Below, one piece after another: positions 24,755 through 39,295 of a stretch of 64,000 bases of DNA. The notes below the pieces were generated by a model, which was given only the letters and a program-made list of their open reading frames with translations, was not told where the DNA came from and did no database searches. Both the position numbers and the translations under genes were made by a program. Position 1 is the stretch's first letter; each line of letters starts with the position of its first letter. Origin of the DNA: Pseudomonadales bacterium (GTDB lineage Bacteria > Pseudomonadota > Gammaproteobacteria > Pseudomonadales > Ketobacteraceae); assembly GCA_020062665.1 (NCBI GenBank), contig JAGUVW010000008.1, positions 62,001 through 126,000 on the forward strand. The letters run 5' to 3'.

Positions 24755-26206
24755 TTAGAAATTCAGGTCGTTGAGTGATGCCCGCATTTCCTCCATGCGC
24801 GCGTTGATGCGGGCGGCGGTCTGAAACTGCTTTTCGGCCAGAGGCAGTGCGTATTGAAGCTGCTCAATGGCGCTCATGGTTCGACCGTGCAGATAATAGT
24901 ATTCGGCCTTGGCCTGATAAACCCCGAGACGGTCGTTGCTCTTGCCGTGTGCCTCGGCCAGCAGGTTCCACAATAGCGGCAAGGTTTCGCGCTGTGTCAG
25001 CTGATAGCGCAGAATATTGATAGCTTCATCTTCCTGCTTGATCTTGATCAGCGACGACGCATACAGGGTCGACAGCACAAAATTATCCGGGCTGTATTTC
25101 AGCGCGCCTTTCAGCAGGGTTGCTGCTTCGTCGTAGCGTCCCATCTGTCCCAGAATTTCTGCCTTGGTAGCGATATAGGTGATGCGCTGGGGCCGGTATT
25201 CCACCAGCTGGTTGATGTTTTTCAGGGCGAGATCGAGCTGGTTTGCCTTGCGATAGGCGCAGGCCAGTCCGTATTCGACAGCTTCCAGTATCTGCGGACT
25301 GTTCTTGCGCTGGGTTTGCAGATCCAGAATGGTGGCGTTGGTGTCCTGGGCAAACAGAATCTGCGCGCGCATTTTCATCAGCGCAAATTCCAGGGAGGTG
25401 CTGTTGGGGCGTGATGGCAGCTGGGCGGCGCGGGTGCGGGCATCGGTGATCCGCGATTCGGTGACCGGGTGAGTGAGGAGAAATTCCGGTGGCAGGGTGC
25501 CGTAGTATCGCATGCTGCGCTGCAGGGCTTCGAAGAAGTCCGCCATGGCGCCGGGATTCATGCCGGAGCGGGCCAGTGTCTGCATGCCAACCCGGTCGGC
25601 TTCCTGTTCGTTGCTGCGGCTGAAGCGCAATTGGGATTCGATGGCGGCGGCCTGGGTGGTGGCCAGGGCAGCCATGCCCGCATCGCCACCGGCAGTTGCG
25701 GCGATGGCGACGCTGGCGAGCAGGGCGGCCAGGGTTGCCCACGAGGTGTTCTGCGACCGTTCCAGCGCTCTGGCGAAATGGCGTTGGCTGAGGTGCGCCA
25801 ATTCGTGCGCGATGACCCCGGCCAGCTCATCTTCGCTGCGCGCATTCAGCAGCAGGCCGCCGTTGAGCCCCATGACACCGCCAGGTACTGCAAAAGCGTT
25901 GATATCCGGACTCTGGATCACCACCATTTCGATCTGCGGATTCTGCAAATCGCTGTTCGACGCCAGCCGGTAAACCAGTTCATACAGATAGTCGTGAATC
26001 AGGGGATCCTGGATGATGGGAGCCTGGGCTCGTAGCTGCCGCAGCCAGGCACGGCCTATCCTGTACTCCTGTTCGGCGCTGATGACCGACGATGAGGCGT
26101 CGCCCAGCTTGGGCAGTTCGTCAGCAGAAGCGTGGGTGTGCACCAGCCACTGGCTGCTTGCCAGAACCAGCCAGATAATCGTTCGGATCCAAAACTGCAG
26201 ATTCAT
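24755..26206 (-). CDS. BepA-like M48 periplasmic metalloprotease with TPR
   Basis: A 483-residue protein with a signal peptide (IRTIIWLVLASSQWLVHTHA), an M48 peptidase domain with zinc motif HELAH at residues 134-138 (AGVIAHELAHLSQRH) and the third ligand Glu in SNEQEADRVG, and C-terminal TPR repeats (about 290-480). It closely follows the BepA/YfgC design (E. coli BepA 487 residues), which handles LptD and BamA assembly quality in the periplasm. It converges with nadA with a six-base gap and is divergent from a TusA-family gene. Confidence 0.93.
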   Translation of the reverse strand: MNLQFWIRTIIWLVLASSQWLVHTHASADELPKLGDASSSVISAEQEYRIGRAWLRQLRAQAPIIQDPLIHDYLYELVYRLASNSDLQNPQIEMVVIQSPDINAFAVPGGVMGLNGGLLLNARSEDELAGVIAHELAHLSQRHFARALERSQNTSWATLAALLASVAIAATAGGDAGMAALATTQAAAIESQLRFSRSNEQEADRVGMQTLARSGMNPGAMADFFEALQRSMRYYGTLPPEFLLTHPVTESRITDARTRAAQLPSRPNSTSLEFALMKMRAQILFAQDTNATILDLQTQRKNSPQILEAVEYGLACAYRKANQLDLALKNINQLVEYRPQRITYIATKAEILGQMGRYDEAATLLKGALKYSPDNFVLSTLYASSLIKIKQEDEAINILRYQLTQRETLPLLWNLLAEAHGKSNDRLGVYQAKAEYYYLHGRTMSAIEQLQYALPLAEKQFQTAARINARMEEMRASLNDLNF

Positions 26207-37033: not shown

Positions 37034-39295
37034 ATGTTGCGGGACGCATCCAGGGAATATCTGATGGCAGTCCAGGGCAATGCGGGTGGTCAGGCATTGG
37101 CAGGACGAGACCGCATGCTGAGTGACACCTACAGTCAGGAAGATATCCGGAATGGATTTCGTGCCGAGATACGCTCGCAGAAGCTGAGCGTTGGCGAGCG
37201 CTTGACCATGTCGCTGTCCGCATTTCTTGCCGTTGCCATCCCGGTGGGATTTCTTGCCTTGGTCGGGCTTTCTCTGATCGTCTGGATTACGTCAACCCTG
37301 TCCTATCTGCGCGAACCGGCTACCAGCCTGTGGTGGGCGTCGGCGCTGGCCTTGGGCAATGTATTTCTGGTGGGGTTTGTGGTGGCGATGATCCGGCGTC
37401 TGGTGCTGATCGGGCGCCAGCGCAAGGAGTTTCTGACCGTCAGCGCCCAGGAACAGCCGGAGCTGCACGCCTTTGTCAATCATATTGCAGATTTGCTCGG
37501 CGGTCCGCTGCCCAGCGCTATCAAGCTGGATGCGGAGGTGGGACTGAATCTGCGCCCCGCTGCTTGGCGCAATGCCGTCATGGGTGTCGGCCCGGAAATC
37601 GTGATTGGTCTGCCGCTGCTGTATGGACTGAGTGCCCGCCAGCTGTCCGGCGTCATTGCCCACGCCTACGCCGGTTATACCCGGGAGGCCCGCGCGTTCG
37701 GATACCCCCTGATCTGTGGTGTGGATCGCTGGCTGTTTGCCCAGTCGGGTGTGGCCCGCTCGGCCACTTCGGTGAATGGAAAGTTCTCGTCGCTGGGGCA
37801 GGACACCTCGGCGCGCTTTCGGCATGTGCTGCGCAGTTTTGATTTTCTGGCCCAGGGAACCTTTTTCCTGCTGTATCGTTTGGTGTCCGCCATTACCTTC
37901 GTGGTTAGTCGCCGGATCGACATGATGGGCGACCAGTTCTCTTCGCGCATCGCCGGTTCCACCGAATTCCGTTCCACCCAGTTCCGTCTGCGCTCCCTCT
38001 ACTACGGACAGCAACATGCCAACCGCGAGTTGATCAAGAGCTGGCGCAACAGCAAGCTGTCGGACAACTTCCCGGCTCTGGTGGTTGATCACGCTGATGC
38101 GCTGCAGTTGTCCCTGCGGCCGCGGCTGATTCAGGAGATGGAAGAACTGGTGACGCCCATGACCCGCAGCCGGATCGTCGATCTGGGGCGCATCGTGAAT
38201 GTGGAGCATTACCAGGATGAGGGCGCCTGCTATCTGCTGGGGTCTGCGGCCACGCTGGTGCGTGACATGGCGACGCTGGCCCGCAAGGTGTCTGTCGATC
38301 ATTATCGGGACATGGGGATTCACAATCCTGACCTGGCATCCACCACCAAGAGTGCCTTGCTGCCCATGGCGGAGCGTGAGCGGGCGCATCGCAGTGAGGT
38401 TTTTGGCGGGCTGGAGCGCAGTGGTCGCATTCTGCGCGTTGAGGATTTTGACGCCTTCACCCATCTGGATCTGTCATTGCGCAAGGCCGAGCTGGCAGAG
38501 CTGGATGAAAAACTGCGGCACGACAGCGCGGTGATCTGGCATCTGGCGGATACCTTCCGCAATTTCGACAGCCGCAAGAATCTGCTGCACATCCGCAAGG
38601 TGATCGAGGAATCCCAGCACGCCGATGCTGCCGTGGTGCGCGACATCGAATTTCAGTGGCTGTCCTTGATCAAGGAACAGAGCGAGGTGAAGGCAGAGCT
38701 GGTGCAGTACGAGAGCCTGCTGGCGCGCAAGATCGCCATCGCCCTGTCGATGGGGCTGGAAGACAGCGTCCTTCAGCAACAGTTCGGCCTCGACCAGGCA
38801 GGTTTGCGGTCGCACCTGCTGCGACTGAGTGATGCGCTGACCTTCCTCAATCGCGGATTTGAATCCCTGCAGCGGCTGCGCACCTACACCCAGATCCTGG
38901 GTCAGCTGATGGTGTGCACTGCCACGGAAAGCGACAGCCGCGTCAAACCGGTGCAGGAAGGCCTGCTGGAGCGTTACCAGAAATACGTGCTGCTGGAGCT
39001 GGGCAGTGTGCTGAATATGGTGGCGCCGGTGGCTCACCCCATGATGGCCTATGCCATGCAGACAGCGGACAGCTTGAAGACAAAAGCCTCTGGCATGGAG
39101 CCGCCTACCATCGGCGAGGTGATTCGGATCGAAATCGCCGATCTGGACTCTGCCTCCACCTGTCCCGAAGCGGGCCATCGGGTCGCAACCGCCGTGGTGC
39201 AGTACATCGAGAGCCTGAACGAGCAGCTGCAGGATCGGGTCAGCCTGCTGGTTGCGCGCACCGAATCTCGTCTGGTGTCGACGCTGACGTCCTAA
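37034..39295 (+). CDS. Large membrane protein related to M48 peptidases, zinc motif apparently lost
   Basis: A 753-residue protein. Two membrane segments near the N-terminus: residues about 60-90 (LSAFLAVAIPVGFLALVGLS) and 97-125 (WWASALALGNVFLVGFVVAM). The region from about 140-340 follows the layout of the M48 membrane proteases (VGPEIVIGLPLLYGLSARQLSGVIAH region), but where HExxH is expected it reads HAYAG (residues 210-214), lacking the catalytic Glu and second His. The last 400 residues are mainly helical with many RxxL and charged repeats, so a scaffold or regulatory role is likely. ATG at 37034 has GGTGGAG upstream. Confidence 0.72.
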   Translation: MLRDASREYLMAVQGNAGGQALAGRDRMLSDTYSQEDIRNGFRAEIRSQKLSVGERLTMSLSAFLAVAIPVGFLALVGLSLIVWITSTLSYLREPATSLWWASALALGNVFLVGFVVAMIRRLVLIGRQRKEFLTVSAQEQPELHAFVNHIADLLGGPLPSAIKLDAEVGLNLRPAAWRNAVMGVGPEIVIGLPLLYGLSARQLSGVIAHAYAGYTREARAFGYPLICGVDRWLFAQSGVARSATSVNGKFSSLGQDTSARFRHVLRSFDFLAQGTFFLLYRLVSAITFVVSRRIDMMGDQFSSRIAGSTEFRSTQFRLRSLYYGQQHANRELIKSWRNSKLSDNFPALVVDHADALQLSLRPRLIQEMEELVTPMTRSRIVDLGRIVNVEHYQDEGACYLLGSAATLVRDMATLARKVSVDHYRDMGIHNPDLASTTKSALLPMAERERAHRSEVFGGLERSGRILRVEDFDAFTHLDLSLRKAELAELDEKLRHDSAVIWHLADTFRNFDSRKNLLHIRKVIEESQHADAAVVRDIEFQWLSLIKEQSEVKAELVQYESLLARKIAIALSMGLEDSVLQQQFGLDQAGLRSHLLRLSDALTFLNRGFESLQRLRTYTQILGQLMVCTATESDSRVKPVQEGLLERYQKYVLLELGSVLNMVAPVAHPMMAYAMQTADSLKTKASGMEPPTIGEVIRIEIADLDSASTCPEAGHRVATAVVQYIESLNEQLQDRVSLLVARTESRLVSTLTS

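Follow-up and report, generated by a model that had tools for sequence, protein, structure and literature searches.

The stretch of DNA analysed here (the window, 64,000 nucleotides of contig JAGUVW010000008.1 from a member of the Ketobacteraceae) carries an uninterrupted reading frame at 37034-39295 (+), running from an ATG at 37034 to a TAA at 39293-39295 and comprising 753 codons plus stop, for what we refer to as the pseudo-M48 membrane protein. The ATG is preceded by a purine-rich GGTGGAG and matches the Met starts of the orthologues L002-L004 (MLRDAS, MLPDAS, MLQDAS). Residues 210-214 read HAYAG (codons CAC GCC TAC GCC GGT, 37661-37675, +), a degenerate form of the HExxH motif of M48 proteases, and a motif scan of the whole 753-residue protein found no HExxH, HxxEH or HxxxH anywhere. 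A preliminary description of the locus had reported a 753-residue protein with HAYAG at this place, and the intact frame and the codons agree with it. Judging by translations, the gene order in the window is a CBS-domain gene, a methyltransferase, the pseudo-M48 gene, a convergent TetR gene, GAPDH and nqrA-D.

Hydropathy averaged over 19 residues peaks at residues 65-83 (2.62) and 102-120 (2.23), and both peaks fall within helices of the predicted structure, giving a first membrane helix at residues 53-92 (37190..37309, +) and a second at residues 99-128 (37328..37417, +); two membrane helices ahead of a catalytic-type domain had been proposed in the preliminary description. Weaker peaks start at residues 181 and 273. 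The M48-like (gluzincin) domain that follows, approximately residues 129-440 (37418..38353, +), was delimited by profile alignment (hhalign) to HExxH-intact relatives and by modelling with structural alignment. It contains the HAYAG motif, the third-ligand site, in which ExxxD has become DxxxD (D296 and D300; 37919..37933, +), and the former active-site plug segment (residues 361-409; 38114..38260, +), a plug having been defined for BepA in PMC7950410. The catalytic-type domain of HtpX faces the cytoplasm. The same orientation is probable here, given the basic residues that flank the helix pair, ahead of the first helix and behind the second. Residues 446-753 (38369..39292, +) form a C-terminal part that is helical in the full-length model and whose alignment extends into other long relatives. 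The preliminary description was right about the presence of this part and wrong about its length, which is approximately 310 residues instead of 400. The orthologue of gamma proteobacterium HdN1 lacks it, so the C-terminal part is not always needed.

The relation to M48 had been the acknowledged weak point of the preliminary description, and searches with the window protein by itself returned little: no Pfam or NCBIfam model reached its cut-off, PF01435 was not among the weak Pfam matches, and a PDB sequence search gave nothing significant. PADLOC matched none of the six proteins tested, and a PDB profile search with the pseudoprotease family gave nothing useful. A contig search with the single protein found no relative, and the same search with an alignment as query found 11. 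Among the more distant relatives are L018, L019, L020, L015 and L021, in which the motif at the HAYAG position is HEFGH or HEYGH. L020, a shorter protein of the same branch encoded on contig 48 of the window's own genome, matches Peptidase_M48 at 1.8e-12, above cut-off, and five of the 13 rows in the alignment of orthologues and relatives match PF01435 (best E 7.5e-14). The broken members tested (the window protein, L009 and L014) gave no PF01435 match, so that annotation by family models would miss them. When the 14 orthologues were aligned as a profile to the five HExxH-intact relatives just named (L018, L019, L020, L015 and L021), hhalign gave a probability of 99.7% (E 3e-27) over 561 columns, and a PDB search with the profile of the intact relatives led to Ste24p (E 1.3e-5).

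Structure prediction used AlphaFold2 with input alignments of 12 pseudoprotease-family members only. The full-length model had a mean pLDDT of 73 and a pTM of 0.48, and a model of residues 45-445 reached 76 and 0.74; in the latter, pLDDT is below 50 at residues 372-399, in the plug stretch. Foldseek placed Ste24p first for the model of residues 45-445, at a non-significant E of 0.23. Structural alignment was then run on Foldseek's 631 candidates, and in the best 50 rows considered, rows 1-18 are all gluzincin metallopeptidases (M48, M56 and related) with Z of 5.0-7.8; the first row of another kind stands at rank 19 (Z 4.9). The 18 entries represent eight proteins: Ste24p, ZMPSTE24, BepA, HtpX, BlaR1 (which we take to be an M56 protein), abylysin, selecase and 3c37. 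Ste24p aligns over 191 residues (Z 7.8, rmsd 7.9), BepA over 171 (Z 6.7, rmsd 5.1) and HtpX over 89 (Z 6.1, rmsd 2.9), Z values of only 5-8 being modest and, as the tool itself warns, of a size that can be common. With the full-length model, Ste24p comes third (Z 7.9), behind two helical ABC-transporter chains that align to the C-terminal part; a resemblance of that part to ABC transporters (Z up to 9.0) was discounted as a common helical arrangement. Modelling thus supports a gluzincin fold for the domain, which we accept because the domain model ranks cleanly and its rmsd is small for HtpX, selecase and abylysin. An M48 fold is therefore present in the prediction, and the profile alignment, the structural ranking and a loss of the motif shared by all 14 orthologues together strengthen the relation that had been read by eye. 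We consider it very probable that the gene encodes a catalytically dead M48 homologue.

The extent of the loss was assessed by comparing site residues in the 14 orthologues with those of 11 chosen HExxH-intact relatives. The first His (H210) and the Asp of ExxxD (D300) are present in every sequence of both sets (14/14 and 11/11), as is the plug Arg (R386). Four further residues of the intact relatives, each found in 11 of 11, are missing from all 14 orthologues: the catalytic Glu is replaced by Ala (13) or Gly (1), the second His by Gly (14), the third-ligand Glu by Asp (14) and the plug His by Arg (14; R380). The plug Pro, also found in 11/11 intact relatives and 0/14 orthologues, has given way to Ile (8) or Val (6). 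The motif itself reads HAYAG, HAFAG, HGYAG, HAFSG or HAYGG, and because the site is broken in the same way in all 14 orthologues, HAYAG is not a sequencing accident. The preliminary description had claimed the loss of the catalytic Glu and the second zinc His and had proposed a comparison of the motif in orthologues; both residues are indeed gone throughout, and the loss extends beyond them to the third zinc ligand and the His of the plug.

Four residues coordinate zinc in BepA, namely H136, H140, E201 and H246; the last of them belongs to the plug, whose motif HPX4R is conserved across PF01435 (PMC7950410). By alignment, only the first of these four coordinating residues would be kept here, the others corresponding to Gly, Asp and, in the anchored alignment of the plug, Arg. 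The anchors are R386 and A405, which are invariant in all 13 rows of the alignment of orthologues and relatives, and the plug so aligned reads R-(I/V)-V-D-L-G-R, with R380 (38171-38173, +) opposite the plug His. Shifting the plug by six residues gives (T/S)PX4R, with P375 and R380, and His is absent in either register. Replacement of the plug His by Arg is likely and not certain, because the six-residue shift also gives TPX4R and the model, with its low pLDDT in this stretch, does not fix the position of R380.

In thermolysin, the first His of HExxH is held by an Asp located four positions downstream of the ligand Glu, a contact that joins the two active-site helices. H210 and D300 are presumably the counterpart of that pair, and since both are kept, the brace between the two helices would be kept as well, and with it the fold, while catalysis is lost. 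The replacements at the site suggest that proteolytic activity has indeed been lost.

Matches were found in 17 of 57 whole genomes searched (own, family and order). Of the 15 genomes searched from the window's family, 14 have an orthologue, and the genome without a match is 54% complete. Among 390 genomes of the order, a profile search matched 28, namely the 14 with orthologues and 14 with distant relatives only; among 369 genomes of the class it matched 11, of which one is the window's own and ten carry distant relatives. Orthologues occur, among other records, in Ketobacter sp. (a genus that the NCBI taxonomy assigns to the Ketobacteraceae), gamma proteobacterium HdN1, strains 42_54_T18 and 45_16_T64 and isolate Ch67. 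Across the orthologues, identity to the window protein spans 61% to 32%. The frame is full-length in 13 of the 14; that of HdN1 has 438 codons only (L032 6911-8200, 430 codons from the chosen Met) and encodes the domain alone.

The gene is under purifying selection. For three close pairs, NG86 gave dN of 0.042-0.062 and dS of 1.0-1.06 (ratio 0.04-0.06), and YN00 gave dN/dS of 0.06-0.09; in five other pairs dN was 0.066-0.306, and NG86 dS, at 1.2 to 2.4, lay beyond the reliable range. Conservation is highest in the former plug segment and not in the HAYAG helix. Across all 14 orthologues 26 of the 49 plug positions are invariant, compared with 7 of 22 in the helix, and across the 13 full-length orthologues the counts are 29/49 and 9/22, with 27/308 in residues 446-753.

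Genomic place is conserved along with the sequence. In the loci of 11 named records, the TetR gene follows in 11/11, GAPDH in 10/11 (at the remaining locus the contig breaks off before it), the CBS gene is present in 10/11 and the methyltransferase in 5/11. HdN1 has its 438-codon frame followed by TetR and GAPDH in the usual order, and from nqrA-D the stretch searched there holds only an nqrB-like match, 33% identical. No operon partner was found among these 11 loci, TetR being convergent and the methyltransferase present in only five. Across 19 other loci of the branch and five of the 11, no gene beyond the family itself is common throughout; genes of two clusters, resembling signalling proteins, recur in up to five of these 24 loci. 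In genome G020 (L181 8099-16779), a GAPDH gene 65% identical to the neighbour of the pseudo-M48 gene lies approximately 5.4 kb from the intact relative L015, with two genes between, possibly a remnant of an ancestral position common to both. Among 18 further loci checked, none showed such a GAPDH, L185 having one at 35%. TetR relatives in other families lie near a frame of IWLAGLGAY type, which we take to be phasin-like, at eight of 16 loci read (L098-L103, L105 and L108), and the one at L105 also adjoins a GAPDH gene.

The loss of HExxH is wider than these orthologues. The motif region was read in 40 aligned sequences of the branch, 12 more distant HExxH-intact relatives being left out of the count; they comprise the 14 orthologues, 13 HExxH-intact sequences and 13 others without HExxH (L016, L056, L017, L073, L074, L076, L083, L136, L137, L140, L143, L148 and the weak match L153), with motif forms that include KEFAF, REFAF, HELGY, HMLGG, HEASM, QALGI and HALGH. 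A tree of 38 rows, calculated without the motif columns, places the 14 orthologues in one group (100/100), and a separate tree also groups them (100). In both, the neighbour of this clade is unsure and several long branches meet. Mapped on the 38-row tree, intact and broken states need at least four changes, three of them forced by well-supported branches. Repeated loss of HExxH in the branch is suggested by this and is not counted, because long branches meet and because profiles that include broken members bias the sample towards broken ones. In L140 (genome G326), which has HALGH, ExxxD and HPADQQR, the catalytic Glu is the only site residue missing, and this protein may show the loss at an early point. 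Genome G489 encodes two long relatives, L073 (HELGY) and L083 (HMLGG), both broken. Many long relatives (such as L072, L073 and L048) carry an extra N-terminal domain of approximately 80 residues that the pseudoprotease is without and that has no Pfam match in L072 or L073. One profile (A6) matched 213 of 341 genomes of the order, many of the matches listed covering this domain only, which seems to occur on many other proteins.

Taken as a whole, the findings are best explained by an inner-membrane M48 pseudoprotease that is probably a non-catalytic binding protein, a reading to which we give a probability of roughly 0.6. A role other than cutting, such as protein binding, is probable because close relatives keep the same altered site; binding in particular is indicated by a fold that is kept while catalysis is lost, by strong selection and by a conservation that is strongest in the plug covering the old groove. 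Two N-terminal membrane helices would anchor the gluzincin-fold domain, a membrane client or partner could be bound by the old substrate groove together with the conserved plug segment, and the C-terminal helices might recruit or position another component. Taken alone, this role as an adaptor or client-holding protein in the inner membrane is plausible, at somewhat less than an even chance. The preliminary description had likewise suggested that the pseudoprotease could act as a regulator, chaperone or scaffold. A bolder version, speculative and rather unlikely as a whole, would have this large gammaproteobacterial branch of membrane M48 proteins repeatedly become pseudoproteases since binding is its main job; in the Ketobacter-type version zinc would have been replaced by R380, which would pair with D296 and latch the plug shut, making the plug a new working surface.

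The protein could conceivably be dedicated to regulating an active M48 paralogue, via mixed complexes or by competing for substrate. The window's own genome offers candidates, with nine PF01435 matches of which eight have HExxH (a control; one lies in a 173-residue frame), including the same-branch L020. However, a close active paralogue of the L020 type occurs in only three of the 14 pseudoprotease genomes and is therefore no general partner; HtpX- and BepA-type proteins could still serve, and we consider regulation of this kind unlikely overall. One M48 domain of this genome (HELAH and HPVTESR, in a 502-residue frame) is encoded within the window at 25430-25990 (-), approximately 11 kb upstream of the pseudoprotease, and is probably BepA-like. 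The ninth PF01435 match (L070, contig 83 near 1682) is a C-terminal M48 half in one frame with recombinase-like sequence, and the 173-residue frame (L068, contig 50 near 140463) is an N-terminal M48 half with HExxH; the two may be halves of a single M48 gene that a mobile element has interrupted.

Less likely again is a cryptic metalloenzyme of altered activity, which would bind metal through a rebuilt site (for example H210 with D296, D300 and another invariant acid, C399 or H423). Candidate ligands are available, given that H210, D296, D300, E311, E368, E370, D383, E391 and C399 are invariant in 14/14 orthologues and H423 and H594 in the 13 full-length ones. Yet those 14 share only one invariant His and one invariant Cys, the general-base Glu is gone, and the protein has no zinc-binding motif of the HExxH, HxxEH or HxxxH type elsewhere. 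That the protein is no M48 relative, its likeness being due to chance, would fit the lack of a family-model match and the non-significant Foldseek result, but is very improbable in view of the structural ranking and because HExxH-intact relatives align across the sites, with five of the 13 aligned rows matching PF01435. Least credible is that the gene is decaying and about to disappear, as the short frame of HdN1 might suggest, against which stand the full-length frame in 13 of 14 orthologues, the low dN/dS and the conserved plug segment and genomic place.

The preferred reading, a non-catalytic binding protein, can be set against known systems. With M48 proteins of the HtpX/Ste24 type (PF01435) the family shares two membrane helices before a gluzincin domain, the order of HExxH helix, ExxxD helix and plug, and the retained first His and ExxxD Asp; it differs in the four site residues replaced in 14/14 and in the added helical C-terminal part. 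In BepA, too, the third ligand is followed by a plug segment, with a downstream Arg that aligns to R386, but the H136, H140, E201 and H246 of BepA correspond to H, G, D and (likely) R here (PMC7950410), and a TPR domain stands where the pseudo-M48 protein has its C-terminal part. The M48 proteins treated in the relevant parts of PMC8621943 and PMC7804941 carry the full site residues (HExxH). The HExxH-intact gammaproteobacterial relatives, both long (L015, L048, L049, L052, L072 and L149) and short (L018-L020), belong to the same branch by profile and tree, and the C-terminal part aligns at least with that of L015; in contrast to the pseudoprotease they keep HExxH, ExxxD and HPX4R, and many have the extra N-terminal domain.

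Pseudoproteases are already a known kind of protein, and the pseudo-M48 family fits it, with catalytic residues missing in a maintained gene. To our knowledge, most of those described so far belong to other families and to eukaryotes. iRhoms, inactive ADAMs and FtsHi likewise have a protease fold without catalytic residues and belong to other families (for FtsHi, PMC8197885). By term search, "M48" and "Ste24" are absent from the main text of one review (PMC11266112). A literature search on inactive or pseudo M48 proteins and on Ketobacter M48, with most subscription journals outside its coverage, returned nothing recognisably on this family among the matches listed. A family-wide bacterial M48 pseudoprotease, together with the intact and further broken relatives of its branch, offers a natural series in which to study the role of the M48 membrane scaffold once proteolysis is gone.
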